Shown here one piece after another: positions 8,225-56,404 of a stretch of 64,000 bases of DNA (positions are counted from its first letter, which is position 1; each line of letters begins with the position of its first letter). Below the pieces are notes generated by a model. That model was not told the origin of the DNA. It made no database searches and was given only the letters and a program-made list of their open reading frames with translations. This DNA comes from Gemmatimonadaceae bacterium (GTDB lineage: Bacteria; Gemmatimonadota; Gemmatimonadetes; Gemmatimonadales; Gemmatimonadaceae): contig JAUSJA010000008.1 in the NCBI GenBank assembly GCA_030647905.1, positions 62,001 to 126,000 on the forward strand, given 5' to 3'. The position numbers and the translations under genes were made by a program.

Positions 8225-8244
8225 GCTTCGGTACAATTGATTCG

Positions 8245-8382
8245 CGAACGGGAGCCACGGAAGCCGGTGAAATGCCGGCGCGGCCCCGCCACTGTATCGG
8301 GCATCACAACGCGCGCTCGTAGCACCACTGGCAAGACACAGCCGGGAAGGTGAGCGCCGCGGCCCGGAGCCAGGAGACGACT
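8245..8382 (+). promoter_or_regulatory. Cobalamin (AdoCbl) riboswitch
   Basis: The conserved blocks of a cobalamin riboswitch appear in order: GGAAGCCGGTGAAATGCCGG (8259-8278), GCCCCGCCACTGTA (8283-8296), a CACTGG segment near 8326, GGGAAGG at 8344, and the B12 box AGCCAGGAGACG at 8369-8380. It precedes btuF-btuC-btuD-btuB, so it should shut off B12 uptake when cobalamin is plentiful. The expression platform is the hairpin at 8465-8492. Confidence 0.93.
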
Positions 8383-8464
8383 TTCGTTCGCGCCACGTTT
8401 TCAGAACCTCGGGGGAGGTGCTGGTGGCGTTCGAGGCGTCCCCGGCGGACGCGTTGACGTTGCG

Positions 8465-19922: not shown

Positions 19923-20010
19923 GGACGGGTGGCCGAGTGGTTTAAGGCGCACGCCTGGAAAGTGTGTGTACGTTTATAGCGTACCGTGGGTTCGAATCCC
20001 ACCCTGTCCG
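19923..20010 (+). tRNA. tRNA-Ser(GGA), integration target
   Basis: 88 nt with acceptor GGACGGG/CCTGTCC (one G-U pair), GTGGCCGAGTGG, anticodon loop CTGGAAA (GGA), a long variable arm and GGTTCGAATCC in the T arm. Everything from the anticodon loop onward is repeated at 35801 and 50335. This is therefore the intact, regenerated copy at the left end of the island. Confidence 0.96.
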
Positions 20011-21867: not shown

Positions 21868-21877
21868 GATGTCCACC

Positions 21878-35800: not shown

Positions 35801-35862
35801 CTGGAAAGTGTGTGTACGTTTATAGCGTACCGTGGGTTCGAATCCCACCCCGTCCGTTGTAA
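35801..35862 (+). repeat. Attachment site copy B (element 1/element 2 junction)
   Basis: 62-nt copy of the 3' half of tRNA-Ser(GGA), with two differences from copies A and C near its end (CCCCGTCCGTTG instead of CCCTGTCCGTAG). It lacks the 5' half of the tRNA and so cannot encode one. It is the right end of element 1 and the left end of element 2. Confidence 0.9.
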
Positions 35863-35868
35863 CTCGTT

Positions 35869-35907
35869 ATCCCGTTTGCTGTTTCTGAGTAAGCGGGATT
35901 TTCGTTT
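35869..35907 (+). terminator. Terminator just inside element 2
   Basis: ATCCCGTTT (35869-35877) pairs with AAGCGGGAT (35891-35899, one G-T pair) and is followed by TTTCGTTT. It sits a few bases after att copy B, in the same place as the element 1 terminator. On integration it would supply a terminator for the rebuilt tRNA gene. Confidence 0.65.
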
Positions 35908-35949
35908 CACGATGAGCAATCGTTCTGCTGTCCATTCCTGCTGTCCATT

Positions 35950-37167
35950 TCACGCTCCACCGGCGATCGATCGCTTCGCTCGTCCCTTGAGCGCTTCCCG
36001 CATGACGGCCAGCTCGGGCTGCTGGTAGACGGTGAGCACTGTTTGGGGTGATTTCCATCCACCTAAACCGCATAAGTCACGGAGGTTGGTGGTTTTCAAG
36101 TCATTGGCGAAGCGCCTGCGGAGACTGTGGTAACCCAATCCAGGCACATGCTCGATCTTCGCGAGCTTCTCCCCTTGAGTCCACCACTTGAGGAGTGTGC
36201 GGCGGTGGCAGGGCGCCTCTCCATCGGTCGGGGCAGGGAATACCCATCCATCCCCGATCGTCGCGCGCTGCCGGCGTGCCCGCTCCAGTAAACTTGCCGC
36301 TACATCGCTCAACGGGGTCGTGTGGTCGAGCCCGATCTTGTCGCTCTCGGGCCGCCAACGCACTGACCGCTCGCCGAAGTTGATATCCGCCCAGCGAAGA
36401 AGACGGATACTTCCGATCCGATGGCCCGTTTCGTAGCCAAGCATGAGAGCGAGCGCAAACTGCTCACTTACCTGCGGGGCCGCAACTAATAGAGAGCGAT
36501 ACTCAGCCTCCGTCATCATCGGCCGACGCGGGTTCTCTTCCCGAGGTAGCGGACTTCCACGGAGTGGATTGTGATCGAGTAGCGGCGCGTCTGACGCATC
36601 GTGTACCATGGTCGCCCAGTTAAGACACGCAAGCAGGAACTGTAAGTCGTATCGGATTTGCTGATCGCGCACTGGCCGAGGTCGTGTCGACCGCTCTCTC
36701 TCTCCGTTGGTCCTCATCAAACCCGGCGGGCGGAGCGTGCCCCGCCGCCGCTCCTTGATAAACCGATCCCAATCTCGCCGATTGAGCGTCTTGGGATGCC
36801 GCTTCTCGCCGAAGCACCGACGGAATAGCTCCGTGCAGGCACGGTCGTGGCGCTGCTTGCCAGCACTTTTCTCTGGCGTTACTTCACGTACATAGTTGTC
36901 AAACAACGACGCCAAGGTTAGCGTGGCGCGCGCAGGTGATGCAGTGAAGCGGAGTTCGAGTGCTAGCGTGTCAGCCTGCGTTTTCGCGCGCTCGCGATCC
37001 GAATGACCGGTCGATACGCGTTTCTTGATACCGCGGCCATCTCTATGCCGCTCGCAGAACTCAAGGAAGATGACGCGACGCGTCAAGTCCTCGAAAGCGC
37101 GGACGCGATTGCGTCCTCGCTCACCGCACAAGTAACTCCATGCCTTTCGTGTTCTCGCGTGTCCCAT
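35950..37167 (-). CDS. int: Tyrosine recombinase/integrase of element 2
   Basis: 405 aa. Catalytic residues: Arg in YETGHRIGSIRLL, HxxR in YHSLRRRFAND, GLGGWKS, and Tyr in LTVYQQPELA. It points at att copy B. The N-terminal part (GIKKRVSTGHSDRERAKTQADTLA) is the arm-binding/SAM-like region. It differs from the element 1 integrase, but its last 45 codons are closely matched by the remnant at 39301-39425. Confidence 0.93.
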   Translation of the reverse strand: MGHARTRKAWSYLCGERGRNRVRAFEDLTRRVIFLEFCERHRDGRGIKKRVSTGHSDRERAKTQADTLALELRFTASPARATLTLASLFDNYVREVTPEKSAGKQRHDRACTELFRRCFGEKRHPKTLNRRDWDRFIKERRRGTLRPPGLMRTNGERERSTRPRPVRDQQIRYDLQFLLACLNWATMVHDASDAPLLDHNPLRGSPLPREENPRRPMMTEAEYRSLLVAAPQVSEQFALALMLGYETGHRIGSIRLLRWADINFGERSVRWRPESDKIGLDHTTPLSDVAASLLERARRQRATIGDGWVFPAPTDGEAPCHRRTLLKWWTQGEKLAKIEHVPGLGYHSLRRRFANDLKTTNLRDLCGLGGWKSPQTVLTVYQQPELAVMREALKGRAKRSIAGGA

Positions 37168-37178
37168 CGGAAACCTCT

Positions 37179-37592
37179 TTAGCTGAGGGTGACGACGGAC
37201 CGCGCGATCTGCGTTGCAGTGCCAACAATGGCTGGTTGCGGGCGCGGAGACAAGTGACCGGGTTTTCTTGGCAGATCGCCTCGACGGAGCTTAGGAGCGC
37301 CGCCGCGGCCAAAATTTTGAATGCGTCCCGCGCGCACATCGCGAGATAACTGTCGAGTTGAATACCCCGATTCGTGGGCCGCCTGTGTAATTGACAGCAG
37401 ATCGTCCAGCCCACTCTTCGCTATCGCCTCAAGGTCCGCCAGCACCTCGTCGCAGATCCTCGCACCATCAACCGACGCCTGGAGTTTCTTGAATTCGTCC
37501 CTGCGTAGGCGCCAGCGTTTAAGGATCTCTGCGCATCGCCCCAGTTGGCTGTCGCGACCGCGAGCGTGAGGTGATAAATTGGACAGATCCAT
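37179..37592 (-). CDS. HTH protein upstream of integrase, shared with element 1
   Basis: 137 aa, stop 11 nt before the integrase start. The C-terminal half has AAHESGYSTRQLSRDVRAGRI followed by QNFGRGGAPKLRRGDLPRKPG, the same helix-turn-helix-plus-wing block as the element 1 protein at 24964. In this element it sits where an excisionase or integration regulator would be. The N-terminal helical half differs between the two. Confidence 0.65.
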   Translation of the reverse strand: MDLSNLSPHARGRDSQLGRCAEILKRWRLRRDEFKKLQASVDGARICDEVLADLEAIAKSGLDDLLSITQAAHESGYSTRQLSRDVRAGRIQNFGRGGAPKLRRGDLPRKPGHLSPRPQPAIVGTATQIARSVVTLS

Positions 37593-37620
37593 GTTCGTAA
37601 CCTATTAATAGAACACCCCT

Positions 37621-38421
37621 ATGTCCAGACGGGTCGACACGAGGAAGAGCAGCCAGTCTCTGATCGGTGAGCGAATAGAATGGCTCGTTAACCAGTTTTC
37701 TGGCGGTAGCGTGCGTGCTGCCTCCCGAGAATGGGGAGTAACTCGGCCGACGTTGATCCGCTTGATCGACGGAGTGGTCAAGTCGCCGCGGAATAGGGCG
37801 TTCGAGAATATCGCTAATGCGTGTGGGGCCTCTCTCGGGTGGCTGCTCCGGGGTGAGGGGCAGGCCCCCATCCCGCCGCCGCCGACGCTTCCATCCGCGA
37901 CGCCGGCTTTAGCGAGGTGGGAGTCCGTCGTCGGGAGCCTTCGGCTGAGCGAGGATTGTCACACGTCCTTGCTCGCTGTCCCGCGGACAATCCGGCTGGC
38001 GTATAACGCCCTGGTTATAGAAGGGTTGAGCCTCAGCGACCTGTCAGCGGGCGGTCACGAGTTGAGAGCCAAGGCCGAGGAGCTCGAGCTTCGGGCGTGG
38101 TATACCCTATTGGAAGGGCTCATCAACGAGAATGGGGGAGACGCCGTGCGGAGGAAGCTCGAGTCAGAGTCGCTGGTGACCATGCAGTTCAGCCCGGTCG
38201 CAATGTCTCTCTTCATCCATCCATCGACAAAGCCTAAGTCAGCCGCGGATCTGGAAGCATGGAAGGAGGCGATGCAGGTGGCGGCTCAGGGGTGGCGGTA
38301 CCCGCCACATCTTAAAGGGCAGAGGCAAGAGCCACCGCTCGGGGCCTCGCCCAAGATCGGCTCCAAACTGCCGCGCGATAAAGCGCGAGAATCGCGGAAG
38401 AGAAGAAGGGGGGATGAGTAA
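37621..38421 (+). CDS. HTH transcriptional regulator of element 2
   Basis: 266 aa, divergent from the HTH/integrase pair with a 28-nt gap. An XRE/Cro-like region lies at residues about 20-80 (GGSVRAASREWGVTRPTLIRLIDGVVKSPRNRAFENIANACG, then WLLRGEGQAP). This resembles the element 1 regulator at 21878, including the WLL(F/R)GE phrase. The C-terminal domain is of unknown fold with a basic tail. Probably the maintenance repressor of the element. Confidence 0.7.
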   Translation: MSRRVDTRKSSQSLIGERIEWLVNQFSGGSVRAASREWGVTRPTLIRLIDGVVKSPRNRAFENIANACGASLGWLLRGEGQAPIPPPPTLPSATPALARWESVVGSLRLSEDCHTSLLAVPRTIRLAYNALVIEGLSLSDLSAGGHELRAKAEELELRAWYTLLEGLINENGGDAVRRKLESESLVTMQFSPVAMSLFIHPSTKPKSAADLEAWKEAMQVAAQGWRYPPHLKGQRQEPPLGASPKIGSKLPRDKARESRKRRRGDE

Positions 38422-39300
38422 CTCTCCCCCTAGAAGGTCCCGCCTCGGGGCCGTCACACGGACATCATCAGATTCGCTATTGGAATGATGGTTCACATGA
38501 GAGACCGCGTCTCGGGTTGGCCTCAGGATCGATAACGTCGGCTTCCCCCAGGACTCACTGGCTCTGCTCCGGTTATCTTTGGGTTCTCGCCTCAATTCTC
38601 CCTTCAATTGTTCCTTCAGTTTTCTGCGAAGCAATGGCTGTAGTGGGCCCGCCGTTTTCGCAGAGTTCGAGGTTCTGAGTCGTCTTTGAGAGCGATTTGT
38701 TTTGTTCTCAGCATCGAGAAATCAGCAGTAAGTCAGTTGCTGCACGAGCTTTGACGAAGGAACCCAGATGAACGCGATGCCGTGATGCGAAGCGGCGTGC
38801 CGCTTTTTATTCACGTCGGGAAGTTGAGGCATCAGGACTTGGCGGCAAGCTTTGTCTTGCTAGCGCCACGCCTCATAAGGTTTCGCGAGAAGCACAGGCC
38901 ACCGTTCATAGCAAAGGTCTATCGTCCGGAAAGGAAATCGCCTTTTCGCACAGTGCCAGGCGCGATCAAGATGGTTCTTACGCTGGATACGTGGAGCGCC
39001 GAGTAGAGCGCCGCGCACGGCGCCGGCGATACCCGAGCAACAAAACCACCGACAGGGCCAAGGGCAGTTGAGCAAGAAACGAAGGCTCACTTCAGGGCGG
39101 GGTCATTGAGAGCGCGGGTTACTTCCGCCTGCCCGCCGGCGTTGACAGATTTTTTCTCTGTCCGTATCAACCAACACGTGCCCTTTCATGTGGACCGGCA
39201 CCGCCGACTCCATCATCGCCAAGCTCGAACGACGGGTGAGTAGGCGAGATTTTCGTTTCAGGACGAGCGATTTTTCTGCTGTCCACTCCTGCTGGCCATT
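38422..39300. other. Gene-poor, apparently decayed stretch
   Basis: About 880 nt with no convincing gene. A 74-codon rightward frame (38782-39006) has a weak ribosome-binding region and no recognised domain. A small hairpin (AGCGGC/GCCGCT plus T-run) lies near 38791. From about 39240 the sequence becomes a diverged copy of 35885-36080, the left end of element 2. The stretch looks like the scar between two insertions. Confidence 0.5.
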
Positions 39301-39425
39301 TCACGTTCCACCGGCGATCGATCGCTTCGCTTGTCCATTCAACGCTTCCCGCATGACGGCCAGCTCGGGCTGCTGGTAAACGTGAGCACTGTCTGCGGTG
39401 ATTTCCATCCACCTAAACCGCATGA
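39301..39425 (-). pseudogene. Integrase C-terminal remnant
   Basis: The sequence matches the last 45 or so codons of the element 2 integrase: GGWKSPQTVLT in one frame and VYQQPELAVMREAL, then AKRSIAGGT in another. A single-base deletion just before the catalytic Tyr codon breaks the frame, and everything upstream of about 39425 is missing. No att copy is visible at its left. It marks a former third integrative element. Confidence 0.85.
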
Positions 39426-39530
39426 GTCGCGATCGTAGTGCGAGATGAGCATGATGGGCGTTTCGCGTTGAAATGCCTGACAACCGGTTGCGCGACACCC
39501 GCCTGACCGGTTACCATTTGAGATAGTGGC

Positions 39531-39614
39531 ACGGGGTGCCTGCGCACGAGTCGACAAGCGCGGGCTGAGATCACACCCGTCGAACCTGATCTGGGTCATT
39601 CCAGCGAAGGGAGC
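39531..39614 (+). promoter_or_regulatory. TPP (thiamine pyrophosphate) riboswitch
   Basis: All THI-box blocks are present in order: GGGGTGCC (39533), GGGCTGAGAT (39562), ACACCCGTCGAACCTGATCTGGGT (39573-39596, the pyrophosphate and pyrimidine sensor core) and CCAGCGAAGGGAG. The last block contains AAGGGAG about 12 nt before the ATG at 39626, so ligand binding could hide the ribosome-binding site. It controls a TonB receptor, a PnuC-type permease and a kinase. Confidence 0.94.
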
Positions 39615-39625
39615 GTCACTGGTGC

Positions 39626-41821
39626 ATGCGCGTCGCGAGCCGCCGAAGCCCGAGTCTTCGTCCCTCGCCTCTTCCGCCGGCCCCGCTCCCATCGCGACAT
39701 ACGCGACATTCCGGAGCGCTCGTGCTGGCACTCGCACTCATCCTCGCCCTTCAGGCGGCCTCTCCCGCCGACACCACCCACGCGCGCACCGACTCGCTCG
39801 CCGCCGACTCGCTGCGCGCCCGCCGCGCGCAGCGGCTGGAGTCGGTTCAGGTCACCGCGATTCGCGGCGGCTCCGCGCTGATCTCCGAGAAGACGCTGGA
39901 ACGCGCCGACATTCAGCGCCGCTACGCGGGACAGGAGACGCCGATTCTCCTGCAGGCCGCGCCCGGCATCACCGCCTACTCGGAGAGCGGGTCGGCATCC
40001 AACTACTCGTACATGCGACTGCGCGGGATCGACCAGACGCGCATCAACATCACGCTCGACGGCGTTCCGCTGAACGAGCCGGAGGACCAGGGACTCTTCT
40101 TCTCCAACTTCCCCGACTTCGCGAACAGCATCGCATCGGTGCAAATTCAGCGCGGTGTCGGCTCGAGCACGCATGGCGTCGCCTCGTACGCCGGATCGGT
40201 GAACTTTCAGTCCGTGCCGGTCGCGAGCGTCGCGCCCGGCGGCGAGCTGCAGCTCACCCGGGGTGCCTATGGCACTTCCCGGCTCAGTGCCACCCTGCAG
40301 TCGGGGCTCACGCCGAGTGGCTTCGCTGGATATGTGCGTGCCTCGGGCCAGCGGACGGACGGCTATCGCTTCAACTCCGGCAACCGCTCGCGCAGTACGT
40401 TCGCGAGCGGCGGATGGTTCGGCGCGCGCGACATCGTGAAGGCCACGGTGCTCGCCGGAATCTCGTCCAACGAGCAGGCCTACCTCGCGTCGCCGCTCTC
40501 GGTGCTGCGCCAGAACCAGCGCGACAACCCATACGGCAACAGCCCGGCGAGCGCGGTCGGCGATCGCTTTCACCAGGATCTCGCCAGCGTGGCGTGGACG
40601 CACGCGCTGTCGGCGTCGCTCAGCCTCGCCACTACCGCCTACGGGTTCGACGCCGGCGGCTGGTACGACGTTCCCGGCATCACCGGTCTCGGCGACGCGT
40701 ACAACTACAATCTCCACTCGCGCTGGGGGGGCATCATCAGTGCGCTTGACTGGACCGGCGAGGCGGCCACCGCGTCGTTCGGCCTTCACCTCGCGCGCTA
40801 TCACCGCGAGCACTGGCTGTACACGCGTCCCGGTCTCGAGACCCGTCTGTACAGCAACGTCGGCTACAAGGGCGAGCAGAGCGCCTTTGCCAAGGGCTCG
40901 GTCACCCGCGGACGGACGACGCTGTTCGGCGACCTGCAGCTGCGTCTCTCGCAATTCCGCTACCAGCCGACGGAGAGCTCGGGTGTCTCGCCGGCGTCGG
41001 TGCGGTGGTCGTTTCTCAATCCGAAGGCGGGGGTGAGCGTGCGCGTCAGCGATCGGCTCGTCGCGTACGCCAGCGCGGGCATCAACGGGCGGGAGCCGAC
41101 GCGCGCCGACATGTTTGCCGGTGCCGACGACGTGGACAGCGTCACCGCGCGCTCGGTGCTGCCGTTGACCCGCGTGCATCCGGAATCGGTGCGCGACGTC
41201 GAGACCGGTGTCACCTGGCAGGGAGGCAGGCTGCAGGCGCAGGCCAACCTCTTCCTGATGCAGTTCCGCGACGAGATCGCGCCGATCGGCGAGATCAACG
41301 AGATCGGCTACGTCCTGCGCAAGAACGTCGCGCGGAGCGTGCGCCGCGGCATGGAAGGCGATCTGACCTGGCGGGCGATGCCGCGCCTCACCGTCCTGGC
41401 GACCGCGTCCCTCACAGACGCGCGCATCCAGGACTATCGCGACGAGGCGACGGGCGAGCTGTTCCACGACGTCACCGCGCTGCTCACGCCGAAATTCACC
41501 AGTGGCCACGGCATTCGCAGCGACCTCGCCTCGTGGCTCTCGCTCGACGTTGATGGGCGCTATTCATCCCGCATGATGCTCACCAACACGAACGACGCGC
41601 GGTTCGTGGTGCCGGCGAGCTGGTACGCCGACGCCGGCATCACGCTCCGCCTCGCGCGGCATTCGGTGCTCGTGCAGCTCCGCAACGTGTTGGACCGGCG
41701 CGTCTACACCGGCGGCTATCCCGGACCCGCCATGGACGGCGCCGACCGGTCGGCGATGGAGCCGTACTACTACACGCTCGCGCCGAGAAATCTGACGGTC
41801 AACGCCCGGCTCGTGTTCTAA
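39626..41821 (+). CDS. TonB-dependent outer-membrane receptor, probably for thiamine
   Basis: 731 aa. A long basic leader and hydrophobic segment (ALVLALALILALQAASPA) form the signal region. The plug has VQVTAIRGG, APGITAYSESGSASNYSYMRLRGIDQTRINITLDGVPLN and QIQRGVGSSTHG. The 22-strand-type barrel ends in LTVNARLVF. Substrate is inferred from the TPP riboswitch directly upstream and the PnuC-type permease directly downstream. The opposite strand carries a long but spurious open frame caused by high GC. Confidence 0.9.
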   Translation: MRVASRRSPSLRPSPLPPAPLPSRHTRHSGALVLALALILALQAASPADTTHARTDSLAADSLRARRAQRLESVQVTAIRGGSALISEKTLERADIQRRYAGQETPILLQAAPGITAYSESGSASNYSYMRLRGIDQTRINITLDGVPLNEPEDQGLFFSNFPDFANSIASVQIQRGVGSSTHGVASYAGSVNFQSVPVASVAPGGELQLTRGAYGTSRLSATLQSGLTPSGFAGYVRASGQRTDGYRFNSGNRSRSTFASGGWFGARDIVKATVLAGISSNEQAYLASPLSVLRQNQRDNPYGNSPASAVGDRFHQDLASVAWTHALSASLSLATTAYGFDAGGWYDVPGITGLGDAYNYNLHSRWGGIISALDWTGEAATASFGLHLARYHREHWLYTRPGLETRLYSNVGYKGEQSAFAKGSVTRGRTTLFGDLQLRLSQFRYQPTESSGVSPASVRWSFLNPKAGVSVRVSDRLVAYASAGINGREPTRADMFAGADDVDSVTARSVLPLTRVHPESVRDVETGVTWQGGRLQAQANLFLMQFRDEIAPIGEINEIGYVLRKNVARSVRRGMEGDLTWRAMPRLTVLATASLTDARIQDYRDEATGELFHDVTALLTPKFTSGHGIRSDLASWLSLDVDGRYSSRMMLTNTNDARFVVPASWYADAGITLRLARHSVLVQLRNVLDRRVYTGGYPGPAMDGADRSAMEPYYYTLAPRNLTVNARLVF

Positions 41822-41822
41822 C

Positions 41823-42407
41823 CTGAGTCCGCTCGAGCTCTTCGCCGCGGCGATTGGCGCCATCAGTGTCTGGCTCAGCATCCGGCAGGTCATCTGGAGC
41901 TGGCCGACCGCCATCGTGAACGTCGTGCTGTACGCGATCGTCTTCTACGAGGCGAAGCTCTACGCCGACATGGGGCTGCAGGTGGTCTACGCGGCGCTGT
42001 CGGTCTACGGCTGGTACGAGTGGCTCCATGGCGGGGAGAACCGTACGGAGCTTCACGTCACGCGCACGGGCCCGCGGCTCGGTGCCCTGCTCGCGCTCAT
42101 CGCTGTGGCCGGATCGGTGCTGCTCGGCACCCTGCTGCACCGGGCGACCGACGCGTCGCTCCCGTTCATGGACTCGGCTCTCTCGAGCACCAGCCTCGTC
42201 GGGCAGTGGATGATGACGAGGAAGAAGCTGGAGAACTGGCTCGTCTGGAGCGTTGTGGATGTGCTGTACGTCGGGATGTTCATCTACAAGGGGTTGTACC
42301 TCACCTCTGCCCTCTACGCAGTGTTTCTCGCGCTCGCGGTGCGTGGCTACGGCGAGTGGCGCCGCTCGATGACCGTCGCGTCGGCCGCCGCCCGAGCGGC
42401 GGCCTGA
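41823..42407 (+). CDS. pnuT: PnuC/PnuT-family vitamin transporter, probable thiamine permease
   Basis: Inner-membrane facilitator of 194 aa. Homology (SPLELFAAAIGAISVWLSIRQ, then WSWPTAIVNVVLYAIVFYEAKLYADMGLQ) begins at a CTG at 41823, one base after the TonB receptor stop. No ATG, GTG or TTG is available before the first helix, and GTG 41916 would remove it. WLVWSVVDVLYVGMFIYKGLYLTSALY is the typical C-terminal region. PnuC carries nicotinamide riboside; PnuT homologues under TPP riboswitches are assigned to thiamine. Confidence 0.85.
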   Translation: MSPLELFAAAIGAISVWLSIRQVIWSWPTAIVNVVLYAIVFYEAKLYADMGLQVVYAALSVYGWYEWLHGGENRTELHVTRTGPRLGALLALIAVAGSVLLGTLLHRATDASLPFMDSALSSTSLVGQWMMTRKKLENWLVWSVVDVLYVGMFIYKGLYLTSALYAVFLALAVRGYGEWRRSMTVASAAARAAA

Positions 42408-42413
42408 CGCGGC

Positions 42414-42971
42414 GTGCTGCACCCTCTCGTTCTTGTCTGCGTCACCGGCCCGGAGTCGACAGGCAAGACGACGCTCGCGCGGCGTCTCGCCGAGTGGCTG
42501 GACACCGAATGGGTGCCGGAGGCGTCGCGCCGGTACGCCGTACGAAAGGGAAGTGAGCTGCTCGCCTCGGATGTGTCGCCCATCGCGCGCGAGCACATCG
42601 AGCTCGCCGACGGTGCGGTCGAGCGGGTGCGCGCGCGCGGGGCGACGGTGCTCGTGCTCGATACGGACCTGATCAGCACCGTCGTCTACGCGCGCCACTA
42701 TTACGGCGCGGTGCCCGCCTGGATCGTGCGCGCTCAGCGTGAACGGCGTGCTGACCTCTATCTGCTCTGCGACGTCGACGTCCCCTGGGTGCCGGATGGC
42801 GCGCGTGACCGGCCGGAAAACCGCGCGGCGATGTTCGACCTGTTCCGACGCGCGCTGGCCGCACAGGATGCCAGGAGGGCGATCATCCGCGGCGATTGGG
42901 CGACTCGCTGGGAGCGCGCTCGCGATGCCGTCGCCTTGCTCGGCGTCGGCCGGACGCCGAGCGAGGCGTGA
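42414..42971 (+). CDS. NadR-like ATPase/kinase, probable thiamine kinase
   Basis: 185 aa from GTG 42414, 6 nt after the permease. P-loop CVTGPESTGKTTLARRLAEWL, then VPEASRRYA and LDTDLISTVVYARHYYG match the ribosylnicotinamide kinase domain of NadR. The substrate is likely what the permease brings in. Because the operon is under a TPP riboswitch, phosphorylation of thiamine to trap it is plausible. No NMN adenylyltransferase domain is attached. The 230 nt that follow hold nothing recognisable. Confidence 0.8.
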   Translation: MLHPLVLVCVTGPESTGKTTLARRLAEWLDTEWVPEASRRYAVRKGSELLASDVSPIAREHIELADGAVERVRARGATVLVLDTDLISTVVYARHYYGAVPAWIVRAQRERRADLYLLCDVDVPWVPDGARDRPENRAAMFDLFRRALAAQDARRAIIRGDWATRWERARDAVALLGVGRTPSEA

Positions 42972-43201
42972 GGCGTCACCCCACCCGAGGCCACCGGCCG
43001 ATCGTGAATGGAGCGCTGGCGCTCACCGTCGCCCACTCGATGCGGAGCGCCTGTCCGCCCGGCATCCGGTGGCGGTCTCACGCGGCATCGGCACAGCTCG
43101 GGCGAACGCCAGAACGCGCGCGGGCTGGTACATCCTGTGCGCCGTCTCCAGGTTTAGAGGTCAAAGCCGACCCGGCATCTCGGACCGAAACTGCTGGCAA
43201 A

Positions 43202-44563
43202 TCACTTTGTTCTACCATCGAGCCAAGAGCCCTTGTCCACGGCCCTTTCCGCCGGTACTGAGCCGGCGGTCAACGCTTCCCGGCCCGTCTGGAGCGGTTC
43301 CACTTTCAGCTCGACGATGTCTGGCGGGAAGAGAAGGTCGAGGGTCCAATCGAAGGCCACACGGAAGCGTCGTTCCCAAAGTGGGAGCATAAACAAGTAG
43401 TAGGTCCGCCAGGCAAACCAGGCAAGAAACCCTGTCAGCGTGACGCCGAAGACTCGGCCCACTCCCCGGTGGCGCCCCAGAGTCGCGAGCATCCCGACGC
43501 CGCGATAATGGTGGGGCTCCAGCTTTCGTTCCGTGAGTGCCGCCACGAGGTTGCGAGCCACATGCCGGCCCTGACGCACCGCATGCTGCGCCGTGGGCGG
43601 CTGATAGCCTCCGCTCGGATCCGGAATCAGGGCACAGTCCCCGACGGCCCACAGCGTCTCGTACCCCCGCACTTGAAGATACTCGTTCACGGGGAGCCGG
43701 TGGTCGGTGCGCTCCGGGTGCGACAATTCGACTGCGCGGATGAGAGGCGATGGCCGGACACCGGCCGTCCAGATGAGCGTACCGGCGTTCAGCTCTCGCC
43801 CGTCGTGAACGCGGACGCGGCCGAACTGGTACCCCGTGACGCGCGCCCCAAGCCAGACCTCGATGCCCCGGGACTCGAGGTCCCGCTGCGCGTAAGTGCT
43901 GACCTCAGAGGGCAGCTCCTGCGCGAGCCGATCGCTCATCTCGATCAGGACCATGCGGATCTCCCCGGGGTCGAGCGCTGGATAGTCCTCGAGCGCCTTG
44001 AGAACGAAGTCGTGGAGTTCGCCCACGATCTCGGTCCCGTTCAACCCCCCGCCCACCGCGACGAAAGTCAGGAGCGCCCGGCGCTCCTCTTTTGAGAGAA
44101 GCGCGGCCCGCTCCAGCAGGTCGATAATGCGATTCCGAATGCGAATGGCGTCCCCCAGGGTCTTCAGGGTCAACGCGTTTTCCGCGAGCCCCGGGATCCC
44201 GAAGAACTCCGTGACGCTGCCAGAGGCGAGCACACAATGTTGGTAGGAGAGCAGCCGAGAATGGTCGTTCTGGTCGACGAAGCCTACAGTTCGCCGCACC
44301 GGATCCACTGTCTGGACCGTGCCCTCGATGAACCGAACCCGGCTCAGCATGCGGCGGATCGGGCTCACGGCGTGTCGAGACTCCACGAGGGAGGCCGCGA
44401 CCTCCGCGAGCAGAGGGGTAAAGAGAAAGAAATTGCTGCGGCTGATGAGGGTGACCTCGATCTTGAGGCCCCGTCTGAGTCGGAGATCCAGGGCCATGGC
44501 GGCATTCATCCCGCCGAAGCCGCCGCCGATGATGACGATGTCGGCGCGCGCAAAAGGGTCCAT
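43202..44563 (-). CDS. ndh: Type II NADH dehydrogenase (NDH-2)
   Basis: 453 aa flavoprotein that passes electrons from NADH to quinone without pumping protons. The FAD-binding IVIIGGGFGGMNAA is at the N-terminus, the NAD-binding FVAVGGGLNGTEIVGEL is near residue 170, and LWAVGDCALIPDP is the second FAD site. The C-terminal part has a hydrophobic/amphipathic segment (AWFAWRTYYLFMLPLWERRF) for membrane attachment. It is the third gene of a leftward operon after mrp and nfu. Confidence 0.92.
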   Translation of the reverse strand: MDPFARADIVIIGGGFGGMNAAMALDLRLRRGLKIEVTLISRSNFFLFTPLLAEVAASLVESRHAVSPIRRMLSRVRFIEGTVQTVDPVRRTVGFVDQNDHSRLLSYQHCVLASGSVTEFFGIPGLAENALTLKTLGDAIRIRNRIIDLLERAALLSKEERRALLTFVAVGGGLNGTEIVGELHDFVLKALEDYPALDPGEIRMVLIEMSDRLAQELPSEVSTYAQRDLESRGIEVWLGARVTGYQFGRVRVHDGRELNAGTLIWTAGVRPSPLIRAVELSHPERTDHRLPVNEYLQVRGYETLWAVGDCALIPDPSGGYQPPTAQHAVRQGRHVARNLVAALTERKLEPHHYRGVGMLATLGRHRGVGRVFGVTLTGFLAWFAWRTYYLFMLPLWERRFRVAFDWTLDLLFPPDIVELKVEPLQTGREALTAGSVPAERAVDKGSWLDGRTK

Positions 44564-44589
44564 GACGTCCTCTATGATCTATGCCTCCA

Positions 44590-45216
44590 TCAGCCGGTGT
44601 TTTGGTAGAAGGGTTTCTTCCCGGCCTCGTGGTCCGTCATGTCGACGATGTCCACGATCTCCGGTGCAACCCTGCGCACCTTAACCTCGAACCCGCGTCG
44701 CAGCGTGAGTTGCGAGGCCGCGCATCCCTGGCACCCGCCACTCATGGTGACAAAGAGGTTGCCGTCCTTCACGTCGACAATGGAAATTTTCCCGCCGTGG
44801 GCCGCGATGGCACGGTTGACTTGCAGGTCCAGGAGTTCCTGAATAACCGTGCGAACCTCGGCGTCGGTGCGCCCCGACGCACCTGCGGTGCGAGGGGCCG
44901 CGAGGATGGCCGGTACGTCTGTGAGGAGCTGCGCTCGGATGACCGTTCCGATTGCCGATTTCAGTGCGGACCACGAGGCGACTGAGTCCTTCCCGACCGT
45001 CACGACGTTCTCGGTAATGAGCACGTTGGCGACGCCGGGAAGCGCGAACAACTGTTCGGCGAGGGGTGAACTAGCGGCCAATTCCTTGGCGTGGAAGAAG
45101 AAGGGACCGCCCGGTTGTACCATCTGGCTTACAGTGAACTTGCACGTGTCGGGATCGGCGACGGAAGATATGGCGCGGATCGTGATCGTCGGGTCGAGAG
45201 GCAGGACATCAAACAT
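44590..45216 (-). CDS. nfuA: Nfu-type iron-sulfur cluster carrier
   Basis: 208 aa with two domains: an Nfu N-terminal domain (residues about 8-90, with GPFFFHAKELAASSPLAEQLFALPGVANVLI) and a NifU C-terminal domain (about 115-190). The cluster-binding CxxC is in MSGGCQGCAAS. It accepts [4Fe-4S] clusters and delivers them to enzymes such as aconitase, which is encoded nearby. The start overlaps the mrp stop by 8 nt. Confidence 0.9.
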   Translation of the reverse strand: MFDVLPLDPTITIRAISSVADPDTCKFTVSQMVQPGGPFFFHAKELAASSPLAEQLFALPGVANVLITENVVTVGKDSVASWSALKSAIGTVIRAQLLTDVPAILAAPRTAGASGRTDAEVRTVIQELLDLQVNRAIAAHGGKISIVDVKDGNLFVTMSGGCQGCAASQLTLRRGFEVKVRRVAPEIVDIVDMTDHEAGKKPFYQNTG

Positions 45217-46459
45217 CTTCCACCACCTTGGCTGCGAAGCGCTCAGCCAGGGCCCGCAGGTGCTTCAGCGAGTAGATCCCGGTACTGTGGCCGTCGTTCC
45301 AGCGGAATATGATGGCGTAATTGCCTGCGCTGGTGATCGCATGCGGGGCCACGTCCGGCATTACGCTCTTTGGATTGAGGAGCGGCCGTCCGCTCATTTC
45401 CTCGACGCAGAGGGCGCACGGGCATGCCAGTCGAAGGTCGCGGACGTCGAAGTCGTCACTGCGCCCGTCCTCCCAGAGCACAGACAACGTGCGCGGATCT
45501 CGCCGACGGAAACCGACGGGGGTGGTTGCAGATCCCATCGGCCGGACCGAGCGGTCCATCCAGGCCGGCTCACCCTCGTTCGTTTCCCAGTTCCAGACGA
45601 ATGCTCCAAGCGCCGTCGTTGGAAGCGCCTCGAGTCGACTGGCAAGCTCCGTCGCGATCGCGACATAAGCCTTGGCTGCGACCGAGCTCGCCTTGTTGGC
45701 CACGATCGGATGCCCCTCGTCCCCACCCGTGACGATGTCGGCATCGAGCGGAATGGCACCCAGAAATGGGACGCCGAGCTCGCTACTCATCCGCTCGCCG
45801 CCGCCACGCCGGAAGATGTCCGTGTCCTGTCCACAGTGCGGGCAGGTGAAGGTGCTCATGTTCTCGATGATGCCGAGGATGGCGACATTCAGGGTCTCGA
45901 ACGCACGCAGCCCGCGGCGGGCGATCTTGAGGCTCACATCCTGCGGCGTCGTCACGACGATCGCGCCGGACAGCGGAACGCTCTGGGCCAAAGTCAGTTG
46001 CGTGTCACCAGTCCCGGGCGGGAAGTCGAAAATCAAATAGTCCAGCTGTCCCCACTGCACGGAGCCGATGAACATTTTCAGGTACTTGCCCACCATCGGT
46101 CCGCGCAAGATGGCCGGGCTGTCGTCCCCGGTGAGCATGCCCATCGATATCACCTTCAGGCCGTATCGTTGCGCGGGGACGATCTTCTGGTCCGCGGTCG
46201 TCTCGGGCTGCTCGCCGGTGGGAAGTCCCAGCATGACGGGGATGCTCGGGCCCAGGATGTCCGCGTCAAGCAGCCCGACGCGATAGCCGGCTTGTTGGAG
46301 CGCGAGGGCGAGATTGACGCTGACAGTGGACTTGCCTACGCCGCCCTTGCCGCTGGCCACCGCGATGATGTGCTTGATGCCCGGCAACTTTTCACGACCG
46401 GCGGAAGGCTGGGACGACGCGCTCGGCGCGGTGTCATGGTTCGGACCGGTGGACTGCAT
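45209..46459 (-). CDS. mrp: Mrp/ApbC Fe-S carrier ATPase with C-terminal DUF971 domain
   Basis: 416 aa, first gene of the leftward operon, with GGAG upstream of the ATG. Deviant Walker A VASGKGGVGKSTVSVNLA, DADILGPSIP, FDFPPGTGD and the cysteine pair CPHC identify Mrp/ApbC (residues about 25-290). Residues 300-416 form a DUF971/GBBH-like domain (LSVLWEDGRSDDFDVRDLRLACPCALCVEE). Such fusions occur in several phyla. Mrp assembles or transfers [4Fe-4S] clusters. Confidence 0.93.
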   Translation of the reverse strand: MQSTGPNHDTAPSASSQPSAGREKLPGIKHIIAVASGKGGVGKSTVSVNLALALQQAGYRVGLLDADILGPSIPVMLGLPTGEQPETTADQKIVPAQRYGLKVISMGMLTGDDSPAILRGPMVGKYLKMFIGSVQWGQLDYLIFDFPPGTGDTQLTLAQSVPLSGAIVVTTPQDVSLKIARRGLRAFETLNVAILGIIENMSTFTCPHCGQDTDIFRRGGGERMSSELGVPFLGAIPLDADIVTGGDEGHPIVANKASSVAAKAYVAIATELASRLEALPTTALGAFVWNWETNEGEPAWMDRSVRPMGSATTPVGFRRRDPRTLSVLWEDGRSDDFDVRDLRLACPCALCVEEMSGRPLLNPKSVMPDVAPHAITSAGNYAIIFRWNDGHSTGIYSLKHLRALAERFAAKVVEDV

Positions 46460-46518
46460 GGCTCAGCTCCAATTAACAGGGCGATTGCTCTGTTCAGAAA
46501 ATAGTCAGCTTACTTACT

Positions 46519-46545
46519 CTTTGTAAACTATATACTTTGTAAACT
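46519..46545. promoter_or_regulatory. Direct repeats in the SufR-like/mrp divergent promoter region
   Basis: CTTTGTAAACT occurs at 46519 and 46535, a 16-bp step, in an AT-rich island within otherwise GC-rich DNA. It lies between the leftward mrp start and the rightward regulator start, with TATACT at 46531. Likely operator of the SufR-like protein; the reported cyanobacterial SufR site is different (inverted), so binding must be shown. Confidence 0.6.
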
Positions 46546-46564
46546 TGCTAAAATGGAGACCCAC

Positions 46565-47353
46565 ATGCAGGTTGCCAGCATGAACCCTGAAACTCCCGGT
46601 TCCGGTCGGGACCGTGTCCTCTTCCAGCTTAAGACGCACGGGCCCCAGACCGCAGCGCGGGTGGGGAAACGGCTGGACGTTACGGCCATGGCTGTCCGCC
46701 AGCACCTCTCCGTCCTTCAAGGAGAGGGGTTGGTCGACTTCACGGATGAGCGGCGGAAGGTCGGTCGGCCCGCACGCGTATGGCAAGTCACGGCCAACGC
46801 CAACGATCGATTCCCGGACTCCCACGCGGAGCTCGCGGTCGACATGCTCGAGGCGATTCAGAGCACCTTCGGGGAAGAAGGCCTGGAACGCCTGACCGCC
46901 GAGAGGACGCGGAAGCAGGTGGAAAGCTATCGCGCGCGGATGCCCAGCCGGGACCGGCCGCTCGAGGAACGCGTGGCCGCCCTTGCGAGGATCCGACGCG
47001 AGGAAGGCTACATGGCCGAGTGCAGGCGCGTCCGGAATGGAGCGATCGAGCTCGTAGAAAACCACTGCGCGATCTCCAAGGCAGCGCAGTTCTGCCCGAA
47101 GCTCTGCGGCGGCGAGCTGACGCTCTTCCGTGAGGTCCTCGGTGACCGCGTCACCGTCGAGCGGATCGAGCACATGCTGAGTGGCGACCGCCGGTGCGCC
47201 TACCGAATAATCGTGGAGTCGGGCGAGGGCCGGAGGGAAGCAGAAGTTCATGAGCGAAGCGTTCAAGCCGAGAGTCGACGATGCGCGTCTGACCGAGTTC
47301 ACGCGAGGGTCTCTTCTGTTCACCCAAGGTCTACGTCGCAGGACGCTCCGTGA
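46565..47353 (+). CDS. sufR: SufR-like iron-sulfur transcriptional regulator
   Basis: 262 aa from ATG 46565, which has GGAG six bases upstream; ATG 46553 is in frame but lacks a ribosome-binding site. An N-terminal winged HTH (GPQTAARVGKRLDVTAMAVRQHLSVLQGEGLV) is followed by a sensor domain with Cys in ENHC, Cys 12 residues later in FCPKLC, and Cys in GDRRC, the SufR-type cluster ligands. The last 40 residues are Arg/Ser-rich and unlike the family, suggesting a shifted 3' end. Probably senses Fe-S status and controls the divergent mrp-nfu-ndh operon. Confidence 0.85.
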   Translation: MQVASMNPETPGSGRDRVLFQLKTHGPQTAARVGKRLDVTAMAVRQHLSVLQGEGLVDFTDERRKVGRPARVWQVTANANDRFPDSHAELAVDMLEAIQSTFGEEGLERLTAERTRKQVESYRARMPSRDRPLEERVAALARIRREEGYMAECRRVRNGAIELVENHCAISKAAQFCPKLCGGELTLFREVLGDRVTVERIEHMLSGDRRCAYRIIVESGEGRREAEVHERSVQAESRRCASDRVHARVSSVHPRSTSQDAP

Positions 47354-47390
47354 GAGCGGGGATATTCCGCAAGAGGGCGAGCGCGGTTAG
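47250..47390 (+). CDS. Short ORF overlapping the regulator's 3' end
   Basis: 46 codons from ATG 47250 to TAG 47388, overlapping the unusual tail of the SufR-like gene in another frame (starts SEAFKPRVDDARLTEFTRG). It may be a small protein or the stump of a gene truncated during island assembly. No ribosome-binding site is convincing. Confidence 0.25.
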   Translation: MSEAFKPRVDDARLTEFTRGSLLFTQGLRRRTLRESGDIPQEGERG

Positions 47391-47581
47391 CCATCGATGG
47401 GGCGAACTGATCAGGTCGCAGGACTGGGCGGGTCGTGGGCCCCCAGCGGGGCAGAGCGTGCCTGCGTACACGGTTGTTGTCCACGGCGACGACATCCAAG
47501 TTGACATCTTAGAGGGAGCTACCTAGTGCGAACCCGCCGGATCGAACCGGGAGCGGATTAGGCTGGCGCCATGGAGCAATA

Positions 47582-47854
47582 ATGACGTATATCATTGCCG
47601 AGTCCTGTATCGGCGTGAAGGATAGAGCGTGCGTGGATGTGTGTCCGGTGGACTGTATCTACGAAGGGCCGGACCAGCTCTACATTCACCCGGATGAGTG
47701 CATCGACTGCGGCGCGTGCGAGCCTGAGTGCCCGGTAACCGCGATCTTCCCTGAAGAAGATGTACCCGAGAAGTGGGCGAGCTACACACAAAAGAACTAT
47801 GCCTACTTTGAAGGCGGTGAAGCCCGGGAAGTGGGGCGGGGCGGCGGAGGGTAA
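47582..47854 (+). CDS. fdxA: Ferredoxin with two iron-sulfur clusters (7Fe/8Fe type)
   Basis: 90 aa. The first motif is Cx7Cx3CP with another Cys nearby ([18 protein letters not shown]), typical of the [3Fe-4S]/[4Fe-4S] FdxA class. The second is [12 protein letters not shown]. It is a soluble electron carrier. It stands alone between the regulator and aconitase. A weak hairpin (CTCCG/CGGAG followed by GTTTT) at 47881-47901 may end the transcript. Confidence 0.93.
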
Positions 47855-48097
47855 GCCCACGATTAACTAGCCCTGAAACGCTCCGCCTTTCCGGAGGTTT
47901 TCATCTGAGGCAACGAATCAACCCTCCCGCAGGTATTGATATCAGGCAACAGGCATCCGGTACAGAGGCTGTGTCTCCCAGGGAGTGTTTGTCCCAGCGC
48001 TATGAGTGGCTACGTTGAGGATGAGCGGAATGTCCCGGGGGGCGATTCGTCACGGGCGAAGGTGTGATCGCAGCGCTATCGACTAAGGAGACTCGCC

Positions 48098-50086
48098 GTG
48101 TCATTCAACGTCGCCCAGAAACTCATCGCCTCCCACTTGGTTGTGGGGCAGATGGTACCGGGGACAGAAATCGGCTTGCGCATTGACCAGACCCTGACCC
48201 AGGACGCGACCGGAACTCTTGTCATGCTCGAGCTGGAGGCGCTGGGACTCGATCGCGCACGCACGGAACTATCCGTGCAGTACGTCGACCACAACCTCTT
48301 GCAGGCCGACAGCAAGAACGCGGAGGACCATGACTTTCTCCGCTCAGCGTCCCGTCGGTTCGGTCTGTGGTTCTCGAAGGCCGGCAATGGGGTGTCGCAT
48401 CCGACGCACATGCAGCGGTTTGGTATTCCGGGCAAGACCATGGTTGGCTCGGACAGCCACACCCCGGCCGCGGGCTCGCTCGGGATGCTGGCCATCGGCG
48501 TGGGGGGCACAGAGGTGGCCCTGGCAATCGCCGGCGAACCGCTCTACATCAGGATGCCCGAAATTTGGGGCGTGCGGCTCACTGGGCAGTTGCCGCCCTG
48601 GACGAGCGCCAAGGATGTCATTCTCGAAATGCTGCGCCGCCACGGCGTCCACGGTGGCATGAATCGGATCATCGAGTACTACGGTCCTGGCCTCGCGACT
48701 CTCACCGCGATGGATCGGCATGTGATCGCCAATATGGGCGCGGAACTGGGAGCGACCACCACGGTTTTCCCGGCTGACGATCAGGTGCGAGCTTTCCTGC
48801 GCTCAGAACAGCGCGAAGGCGACTTCATCGAACTGCTCGCGGATGCGGATGCAGCGTACGATGTGACCGAGGAGATCGACCTCTCCACGATCGAGCCGCT
48901 CATCGCGCTCCCCAGTTCGCCAGGCAACGTCGTGCCGGTGCGAGAGGTCGCCGGCCGGCCGGTCGAGCAGGTCGTGATCGGGTCATCCGCGAATCCCGGG
49001 CTGCGCGACTTCGCGATTGTCGCCGCAATCACCAAGGGACGGCAGTCCCACCCCGGCCTGTCCTTCGACGTCAATCCAAGCACGCGTCAGATACTGCAGG
49101 ACCTGACTAAAATGGGCGCCACTTTCGATTTGATCGGCGCGGGCGCCCGGCTGCATCAATCTGGATGCATGGGCTGCATCGGCATGGGTCAGGCTCCGGC
49201 GAACGGACGCAACAGCCTGCGCACAATGCCGCGCAACTTTCCGGGTCGCTCGGGTACCAGGGAAGACTCGGTCTACCTGTGCTCGCCCGAGACGGCGGCG
49301 GCGGCCGCACTCACCGGAATGATCACCGACCCGCGAGACTTGCCGAAACTCCTTGGCCTGGAGTACCCGGAGCTCGAACTGCCCGCAGTGTCGAGCGTGA
49401 ACCTGACGATGCTCGAGGAGCCGCTGCCGCTGGAGGAGGCCTCCGAAGTGCAACTGGTTAAGGGCGAAAACATCTCCTCGGTGCCGGTCTTCGGGCCGCT
49501 CGCCGATCGCATCGAGGCACCGGTTGCCCTGGTCGTGGGCGACGACATTTCGACAGACGAGATCCTGCCGGCCGGTGCGCGCGTTTTGCCCTATCGCAGC
49601 AACATCCCGAAGCTCGCCGAATTCACCTTCGAGCAGATCGACGAAACCTACCCTGCTCGCGCCGCGGAAACCCGCGACACGTCGGGTCACATTGTGGTCG
49701 CCGGTGCCAACTATGGGCAGGGATCCTCGCGAGAGCACGCCGCGATCACCCCACGCTTCCTCGGATTGCGCGCGGTGCTGGCCGTGTCGTTCGCGCGAAT
49801 TCACTGGCAGAACCTGGCCAATTTCGGGGTGCTCGCGCTCGAGTTCGCGGATGCGGCCGATCACGATCGCATTCAGCAGGGCGACGTGCTTGTGCTGGCC
49901 GGCATCCGCGAGGCGCTCGTGGCCGGGACGGAGATCGCCGTGCGCAACGTGACCCGCGATGAGGTCTACGCCGTGCGGAACGGTCTCTCGACGCGGCAGG
50001 TCGACATGCTCCTTGTGGGTGGTCTCATTCCGTGGCTGCGCGAGCGGAGAGCGCGTGACGCCGGCGATCGTAAGGAAGTCAGGTAG
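48098..50086 (+). CDS. acn: Aconitate hydratase (aconitase), short mitochondrial-like class
   Basis: 662 aa. Isomerises citrate and isocitrate using a [4Fe-4S] cluster. Seen: VQYVDHNLLQ, VGSDSHTPAAGSLGMLAIGVGG, cluster Cys in SGCMGCIGMGQAP and LCSPETAAAAALTG, and the swivel domain with DDISTDEILPAG and GANYGQGSSREHAA. The short length matches the mitochondrial-like aconitase branch, not the 890-aa AcnA/IRP type. It carries its own ribosome-binding site (AAGGAG at about 48086). Its cluster would be served by the nearby Nfu and Mrp. Confidence 0.92.
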   Translation: MSFNVAQKLIASHLVVGQMVPGTEIGLRIDQTLTQDATGTLVMLELEALGLDRARTELSVQYVDHNLLQADSKNAEDHDFLRSASRRFGLWFSKAGNGVSHPTHMQRFGIPGKTMVGSDSHTPAAGSLGMLAIGVGGTEVALAIAGEPLYIRMPEIWGVRLTGQLPPWTSAKDVILEMLRRHGVHGGMNRIIEYYGPGLATLTAMDRHVIANMGAELGATTTVFPADDQVRAFLRSEQREGDFIELLADADAAYDVTEEIDLSTIEPLIALPSSPGNVVPVREVAGRPVEQVVIGSSANPGLRDFAIVAAITKGRQSHPGLSFDVNPSTRQILQDLTKMGATFDLIGAGARLHQSGCMGCIGMGQAPANGRNSLRTMPRNFPGRSGTREDSVYLCSPETAAAAALTGMITDPRDLPKLLGLEYPELELPAVSSVNLTMLEEPLPLEEASEVQLVKGENISSVPVFGPLADRIEAPVALVVGDDISTDEILPAGARVLPYRSNIPKLAEFTFEQIDETYPARAAETRDTSGHIVVAGANYGQGSSREHAAITPRFLGLRAVLAVSFARIHWQNLANFGVLALEFADAADHDRIQQGDVLVLAGIREALVAGTEIAVRNVTRDEVYAVRNGLSTRQVDMLLVGGLIPWLRERRARDAGDRKEVR

Positions 50087-50334
50087 GGCCCACGCGGATT
50101 TATTGTGCAGGAAGATTCGATCCTGTGACGGTTCAGTCGTCGGATTTGTGGGTATGTGGCTGTGCCATAGACTGCAACCGTGATCTGCCAAACACCATCA
50201 TATGGATTGAACCGGCGTTCCGCGCCGCTGCTCTTTACCCCAATTCGACGAGGCACTTTGGGAAGCGTAGTTTCACTTCTCGGAGGTCGCTGCTACGTTC
50301 TCAGATTGTCCGAATCCGTGGCCTTACTTTCAAG

Positions 50335-50396
50335 CTGGAAAGTGTGTGTACGTTTATAGCGTACCGTGGGTTCGAATCCCACCCTGTCCGTAGTAA
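50335..50396 (+). repeat. Attachment site copy C (right end of the island)
   Basis: 62 nt identical to the 3' half of tRNA-Ser(GGA) at 19955-20016, lacking the 5' half. It lies about 250 nt after aconitase, and chromosomal genes follow. The 250 nt before it hold no gene that I can support. Confidence 0.9.
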
Positions 50397-55989: not shown

Positions 55990-56317
55990 TCATTATCTCG
56001 CTGTTCGATTCCGCGTTCAGTTCCAGCGGTGAAAAAGATACTTCGCGCAGGCGTTCCATGCGGCGCTGTGACCCGGCGCGTGCCTTAGTGCGGTCCGCAG
56101 GCGCTGGTCCCCCCGCCGGTGGAACCCTTCGTCGGCTTTTCGGGTAGCTGAGCCATTCCGTGTACAGATCTTTCTGTTGTGTCCCCGGTTCCGGGGTTAT
56201 GTTGCGCGTTCGTCCGTGTTTGGCCGGTATGTCGGCGTTGTGACCAGATCCAGGCTGAGTAGTCCATATGTTACACTCCCTTTTCCCGGCAGATACGCGT
56301 CGGGCACAATTGATATT

Positions 56318-56404
56318 CCGGCAAACCCGTCGAAAGGCGGCGACGCAAAGCCACGAGGCTAAAGCGGGATCTCTCTCCCGCCACGCTCGTCGGGCTACCG
56401 AAGA
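56318..56404 (+). promoter_or_regulatory. c-di-GMP-I (GEMM) riboswitch
   Basis: GGCAAACCCGTCGAAAGGCGG (56320-56340), GACGCAAAGCCACGAGGCTAA (56342-56362), a variable hairpin (GCGGGA/TCCCGC) and CGTCGGGCTACCGAAG reproduce the GEMM-I consensus: the GNRA-type tetraloop and its receptor, and the GCAAAGCC binding core. It ends 10 nt before the ATG of the M15-type peptidase gene, where folding could affect ribosome access. The rest of 55990-56317 holds a CCCCGG-TT-CCGGGG palindrome at 56183 but no gene I can support. Confidence 0.9.

Follow-up and report, generated by a model that had tools for sequence, protein, structure and literature searches.

In the scheme known for PnuT, a permease of the PnuC family, thiamine first passes a receptor, then enters by facilitated diffusion and is finally trapped by the phosphorylation that a partner enzyme carries out. 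The thiamine-phosphorylating enzyme ThiK is of the aminoglycoside-phosphotransferase type. In Bacteroides, a thiamine pyrophosphate (TPP) riboswitch, OMthi, pnuT and tnr3 stand together, and PMC5613172 describes them as one operon in most of the gut Bacteroidetes studied. Here we describe a related cassette from a Gemmatimonadaceae bacterium, in a stretch of 64,000 nucleotides called the window below (GenBank assembly GCA_030647905.1, contig JAUSJA010000008.1, positions 62,001 to 126,000). On its forward strand a TPP riboswitch, a TonB-dependent outer membrane receptor (OMR), a PnuC-family inner membrane permease (PNU) and a stand-alone NadR-like kinase (KIN) follow one another. From comparative evidence the cassette is very likely a TPP-repressed thiamine scavenging unit whose kinase makes thiamine monophosphate (TMP) from thiamine. 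We favor this reading because of the linkage to TPP riboswitches in four phyla, the co-location of the kinase with genes for ThiBPQ, an unrelated thiamine importer, the missing thiamine-to-TMP enzyme in genomes with ThiL, and the separation of these kinases from the NadR kinases of the same phylum that are fused to an NMN adenylyltransferase (NMNAT) domain.

Cassette layout and family assignment

The TPP riboswitch aptamer (THI element, 39522..39630, + strand) matches RF00059 over the whole model (positions 1-105) at 61.8 bits against a gathering threshold of 54.3, and its core columns are conserved in 23 further TPP aptamers from Gemmatimonadota. Next on this strand come the receptor (39722..41821), with plug and barrel domains (PF07715, 44.6 bits; PF00593, 70.6 bits), the permease (41823..42407; PF04973, 164.3 bits) and the kinase (42414..42971; PF13521, AAA_28, 124 bits against a gathering threshold of 27). 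These matches bear out the original prediction, made from the letters of the window, that a riboswitch precedes a TonB receptor, a PnuC-type permease and a NadR-related kinase. Riboswitch searches used our own model, R1, trained on 24 aptamers including that of the window; the Rfam model confirmed 23/23 re-tested TPP matches in loci not labelled Gemmatimonadota. A TPP match was found in 123/150 Gemmatimonadota genomes, mostly one per genome, so the presence of one at the cassette is far beyond chance. The window genome has a second, located before thiC. The leader that separates the aptamer from the probable start of the receptor (39631..39721, + strand) showed no terminator, and its RNA folded no better than shuffled versions (z +0.84). 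Neither transcriptional nor translational control is favored for the expression platform. All three genes may be controlled on one transcript.

The receptor more likely starts at GTG 39722 than at ATG 39626, the start of the longest open reading frame (ORF), because a relative of 96.6% identity does not maintain the reading frame ahead of about 39720, and the corresponding position in loci L064 and L065 is an ATG. Between aptamer and receptor gene, L063 (5798-5999, compared with window 39600-39799) carries a one-base indel that puts the long N-terminal extension out of frame and therefore also speaks for the later start. ATG 39626 was dropped after this comparison with relatives. For the permease, a CTG start at 41823 was assigned, one base after the receptor stop, as family homology covers residue 1 onward; the listed ORF begins at GTG 41916. 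As a PF04973 member under a TPP riboswitch, it is probably a PnuT, that is, a thiamine permease.

The kinase gene starts six bases past the permease stop and encodes 185 amino acids, which hold the kinase domain and no NMNAT domain. Its P-loop, GPESTGKT, lies at 42447..42470 and its ExxR motif (EASR, residues 36-39; E[Y/F]GR in NadR-type kinases) at 42519..42530, both on the + strand. Scores against the NadR models of NCBIfam were far below the cut-offs (TIGR01526, 92.6 of 341 bits; NF005988, 55.1 of 201). The AlphaFold2 model (mean pLDDT 93.7) superposes on the kinase part of NadR 6gyf with Z 23.0 and rmsd 2.6 over 183 residues, the best thymidylate kinase reaching Z 17.4. The modelled chain thus has the NadR kinase fold, and its sequence matches this domain as well. 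At E 0.001, neither the ThiK models (TIGR02721, NF007620) were among the kinase's NCBIfam matches nor the catalytic domain of thiamine pyrophosphokinase (TPK, ThiN or Tnr3; PF04263) among its Pfam matches. There was no second kinase match in the window genome, and tblastn found no relatives of the kinase in viral contigs.

The closest solved relatives of the kinase and the permease are NadR and PnuC (PDB 4qtn, E 6.7e-7). This would fit an alternative in which both proteins handle nicotinamide riboside and the tie to thiamine is confined to the receptor or to the regulation. We regard this alternative as very unlikely in view of the genomic linkage, pathway content and kinase classes described below.

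Linkage to TPP riboswitches across genomes

Two samples of loci were compared: 80 regions (L063-L142) around Gemmatimonadota kinase matches, with many weaker or partial matches left out, and the best 80 of 550 kinase relatives from all phyla. A PnuC-family gene directly precedes the kinase in 105 of the 122 distinct stand-alone kinases (the window not counted). A TPP riboswitch lies within the fetched stretch for 53/122, versus 0/11 NadR-type kinases. On one strand, the complete order TPP-OMR-PNU-KIN recurs in 18 of the 53 (Gemmatimonadota, Acidobacteriota, one Methylococcaceae metagenome-assembled genome and one unlabelled bacterium), and TPP-PNU-KIN without a receptor match in another two; both arrangements speak against nicotinamide riboside as the cargo. 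In the remaining TPP-linked loci, TPP-OMR lies on the other strand (25 loci) or further on (three, Hymenobacter), or the riboswitch follows the kinase (five).

There is also a split version of this arrangement, in which a single TPP riboswitch, away from the kinase, directly precedes an OMR homologue. It was found in 22/22 kinase-bearing genomes fetched (19 + 3), the receptors being 41 to 49% identical to that of the window, and it explains the riboswitch-less PNU-KIN pairs among those followed. In kinase-less thiC genomes (G046, G032, G107 and G010) the riboswitch precedes thiC, as it also does in the kinase-bearing, ThiC-positive genomes G126, G118 and G122. None of the ten genes beside TPP-less PNU-KIN pairs in the five loci L070, L074, L081, L084 and L106, and in L104, was an NAD-salvage gene; they encode peptidases, glucose/sorbosone dehydrogenase, AdoHcy hydrolase, histidine kinase or penicillin-binding protein, or were unassigned. 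In two of the TPP-less pairs, the gene immediately ahead of the permease encodes an M20-family peptidase (L074:395-2272 and L084:3302-5074).

The five loci with an upstream kinase are from Pseudomonadota (L158, L161, L186, L206 and L222, the first two nearly identical), and there the kinase ends 9 to 70 bases before the riboswitch. Downstream genes in L158 and L206 match ThiB (390 and 383 bits, cut-off 317) and ThiP (427 and 402 bits, cut-off 395); for ThiQ (cut-off 245), L158 is over at 246.1 and L206 slightly under at 236.7. The downstream ORFs of L161, L186 and L222 look alike by eye. The kinase thus stands beside ThiBPQ genes, and this neighborhood ties it to thiamine without any PnuC-family gene, which counts against a role in nicotinamide riboside salvage.

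Thiamine pathway genes

Pathway genes were surveyed in 64 Gemmatimonadota genomes, hand-picked for completeness and spread, of which 51 have a stand-alone kinase and 13 do not. ThiC was found in 19, ThiL in 64 (60 over cut-off) and ThiE, counting any match, in 32 (23 over cut-off). NadA is present in 59, so nicotinamide riboside would not be needed there, which again speaks against it as the substrate. ThiK over cut-off was absent from all 76 genomes searched (55 of the 64 and 21 others), with weak partial matches in 36. ThiC is absent from 43/51 kinase-bearing versus 2/13 kinase-less genomes. Neither ThiC nor a ThiE match was found in 32/51 kinase-bearing genomes, 31 of these having ThiL over cut-off and 30 NadA; no kinase-less genome (0/13) lacks ThiE. 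Starting from Acidobacteriota, Pseudomonadota and Bacteroidota loci, 21 genomes were examined as well; ThiL was over cut-off in 20 of them and ThiE had any match in 7. A published survey (PMC10469786) likewise found thiamine synthesis to be far rarer among Gemmatimonadales than among Palauibacterales.

ThiL needs TMP, and without ThiE the TMP has to come from thiamine, or be imported; the step from thiamine to TMP is therefore the missing one. Judged by gene content, the stand-alone kinase is the obvious candidate to fill it. If the kinase acted on nicotinamide riboside instead, the 32 genomes would be left without a known route from thiamine to TMP. The window genome itself has ThiC, ThiE and ThiL, and there the cassette is an acquired addition and not an essential route.

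Two other substrates or products have to be weighed against this gene content. The kinase could resemble a thiamine pyrophosphokinase in function, making TPP directly as a stand-in for the Tnr3/TPK of the Bacteroides cassette. It does occupy the tnr3 slot of the OMthi-pnuT-tnr3 operons (PMC5613172), and TPK itself is absent from 64/64 Gemmatimonadota genomes (control genomes were positive) and from 21/21 of the others. Yet ThiL, over cut-off in all but one of the 32 genomes without ThiC and ThiE, would have no substrate there unless TMP is made, and the folds nearest to the modelled one belong to kinases that would move a single phosphate. We find direct formation of TPP very improbable.

The kinase could also act on another thiamine-related compound that enters by the same permease, such as hydroxymethylpyrimidine (HMP), hydroxyethylthiazole or a degradation product. 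Such a role would suit the kinase-bearing genomes that keep ThiE, and in four kinase-bearing genomes (loci L251-L254) a TPP riboswitch precedes a gene that we take to be ThiM. The 32 kinase-bearing genomes without a ThiE match, by contrast, would have no means of coupling phosphorylated HMP or thiazole to give TMP, and we give this alternative hardly any credence.

Stand-alone and NadR-type kinases

The glycine of the E[Y/F]GR motif, found likewise in E. coli NadR, is present in 11 kinases, and 10 of them have an in-frame upstream NMNAT motif; by these motifs they are NadR. The other kinases have E, any residue, a non-glycine residue and R at this place, and an NMNAT motif was found in 1/149 of their loci (L175; duplicates between the two sets included). 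The near-general lack of the NMNAT domain in stand-alone kinases is a further point against nicotinamide riboside, as is the separate NadR-type kinase gene that four genomes (G122, G212, G241 and G352) hold beside the stand-alone one. An Rfam scan of the 11 NadR-type kinase loci gave no match, so no NAD riboswitch was found there.

E36 and R39 occur in 135/135 alignment rows. Residue 38 is G in 12/12 NadR-type rows, as the definition of the class requires; each of the 54 TPP-linked rows has V, A, S or C there. In the tree of the 135 rows the glycine class falls on one side of a branch with an SH-like approximate likelihood ratio test (SH-aLRT) support of 89. Within the stand-alone kinases, TPP-linked rows are scattered among the unlinked ones (18 to 19 changes), so that the two look like a single family. 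A substrate shift within the NadR kinase family, to be read from kinase phylogeny against riboswitch context, had been proposed originally. The NadR-type kinases are indeed set apart, while the direction of the change, from nicotinamide riboside to thiamine or the reverse, is not told by a tree that has no independent root.

Genomic island

The cassette had also been predicted to lie on an island, and three copies of the 56-nt 3′ end of tRNA-Ser(GGA) together with a tyrosine integrase corroborate this. The copies begin at 19955, inside the intact tRNA gene that anchors the island (19923..20010, + strand), and at 35801 and 50335, where att-like repeats (35801..35856 and 50335..50390, both on the + strand) stand to the left and right of the cassette unit. 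The integrase (35950..37167, - strand; PF00589, 60.7 bits) lies beside the island end. Besides integrase and cassette, genes for an oxidoreductase, an Nfu-like protein, an Mrp-like ATPase, a regulator and an aconitase make up the unit 35801-50335.

In G112, which belongs to another genus, the cassette is 96.6% identical at the DNA level and lies next to two tRNA-Ser genes whose anticodons are those of the pair in the window, with an att copy beyond the aconitase. Between the window and G112, protein identity is 98% for the receptor, 94% for the permease and 91% for the kinase; ThiC is 83% identical between the window genome and G046, which is of the genus of G112. Among the other genomes listed for the window's own genus, 11 gave no match to the kinase, and the match in G126 is distant, at 53% identity. 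Recent lateral transfer of the cassette is the simplest reading.

Several further features were observed in the window. The genes at 44590-50086, for the Nfu-like protein, an Mrp/ApbC-like ATPase, a helix-turn-helix regulator and the aconitase, accompany the cassette both here and in G112. A direct repeat of about 195 nt (35886-36081 and 39237-39431) places the end of the integrase gene a second time immediately ahead of the riboswitch, which could be what is left of an older, decayed integrase; in G112 the repeat is present once. The region 19923-50390 consists of two tandem units between the three tRNA-Ser 3′ end copies, and the one at 20.0-35.8 kb resembles a prophage or a relative of one, with a DnaB-like helicase at 23022, a tail-protein-like ORF at 29442 and an integrase-like ORF at 20647-22041. 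Elsewhere, a cobalamin riboswitch (8235-8399) and a c-di-GMP-I riboswitch (56310-56402) are present.

Discussion

Comparative genomics supports the prediction that thiamine is both the cargo of the cassette and the substrate of its kinase, as a predicted activity. When TPP is scarce, the riboswitch would permit expression of the TonB receptor and of the genes co-directional with it. Thiamine would pass the outer membrane by way of the receptor and equilibrate across the inner membrane through the PnuT-type permease, and the NadR-like kinase would phosphorylate it to TMP with ATP, trapping it inside the cell, after which the chromosomal ThiL would convert TMP to TPP.

Several observations weigh against this reading. 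The permease is over the PnuC cut-off of NCBIfam (TIGR01528, 80.5 versus 42.45 bits), so that its sequence alone does not say thiamine, and this favors nicotinamide riboside. Under the criterion used, no permease column separates the TPP-linked permeases (45 rows) from PnuC, for which there were 5 rows only. In 62 of the 122 stand-alone kinases the kinase follows a PnuC-family gene and no TPP riboswitch lies in the stretch, and these many pairs likewise suit nicotinamide riboside. Where the Pseudomonadota riboswitch lies downstream of the kinase, it is the importer that is controlled and not the kinase. The association of the kinase with ThiC absence (Fisher p 5.9e-6) comes from hand-picked and related genomes, so this p is not a true probability. 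Two genomes, G144 and G080, have neither the kinase nor ThiC. In G144 (L245 and L246), TPP-OMR stands beside a PnuC-family gene with no adjacent kinase, the next gene encoding an AhpC/TSA protein, and a second TPP riboswitch precedes a gene that is presumably ThiM-like. The NadR-type kinases are separated in the tree at only 89% SH-aLRT. The Pseudomonadota NMNAT-kinase fusion at L175:6289-6846 (+ strand) breaks the motif rule, with EFAR and thus A instead of G; on the basis of this motif, either the rule has exceptions or the fused kinase may have another substrate. Finally, the kinase may be promiscuous towards nicotinamide riboside.

Taking these points into account, we consider it likely that the stand-alone, NMNAT-less branch of the NadR kinase family is an unrecognized class of thiamine kinases. 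It would extend over Gemmatimonadota, Acidobacteriota, Pseudomonadota and Bacteroidota, travel on islands, pair with PnuT or with the unrelated ThiBPQ, and provide the sole thiamine-to-TMP candidate in a large part of the Gemmatimonadaceae and in many Acidobacteriota. If this is true, it supplies the enzyme for a step that vitamin B1 salvage is missing in soil and freshwater bacteria unable to make B1, and it corrects a current annotation that points to NAD metabolism. It would also mean that a small kinase fold has undergone a change of substrate that a motif (E[Y/F]GR versus ExxR) makes testable, and that at least two unrelated enzymes have come to fill the kinase slot in TPP-OMR-PnuT cassettes. 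Dependence on B1 could then be predicted from genomes that have neither ThiC nor ThiE and possess ThiL together with the stand-alone kinase. A literature search by title and abstract, with subscription papers mostly beyond its reach, found no paper that assigns a NadR-type kinase to thiamine.

Comparison with known systems

The window cassette resembles the Bacteroides operon (PMC5613172) in having a TPP riboswitch, a TonB receptor, a PnuC-family permease and what would be a thiamine-phosphorylating enzyme. It differs in the last slot, which in Bacteroides holds the thiamine pyrophosphokinase Tnr3 and here a NadR-like kinase with a separate ThiL. With the NadR kinase domain (PDB 6gyf, 8x7f and 1lw7) the window kinase shares the whole-chain fold, the P-loop and the ExxR and DT motifs. 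Unlike NadR, it stands alone without NMNAT, lacks the E[Y/F]GR glycine, has a conserved STVVYxxHYY stretch and occurs in a TPP context. The predicted reaction, thiamine to TMP followed by ThiL, is that of ThiK (YcfN) of E. coli, which belongs to a different family. Known PnuT permeases are likewise PF04973 proteins tied to TPP riboswitches and to a thiamine-phosphorylating partner, whereas the partner in the window cassette is of the NadR kinase type. PnuT cassettes with a thiamine pyrophosphokinase in the kinase slot were thus known already, and what is probably new is the NadR-like kinase in that slot, as a class of thiamine kinases.

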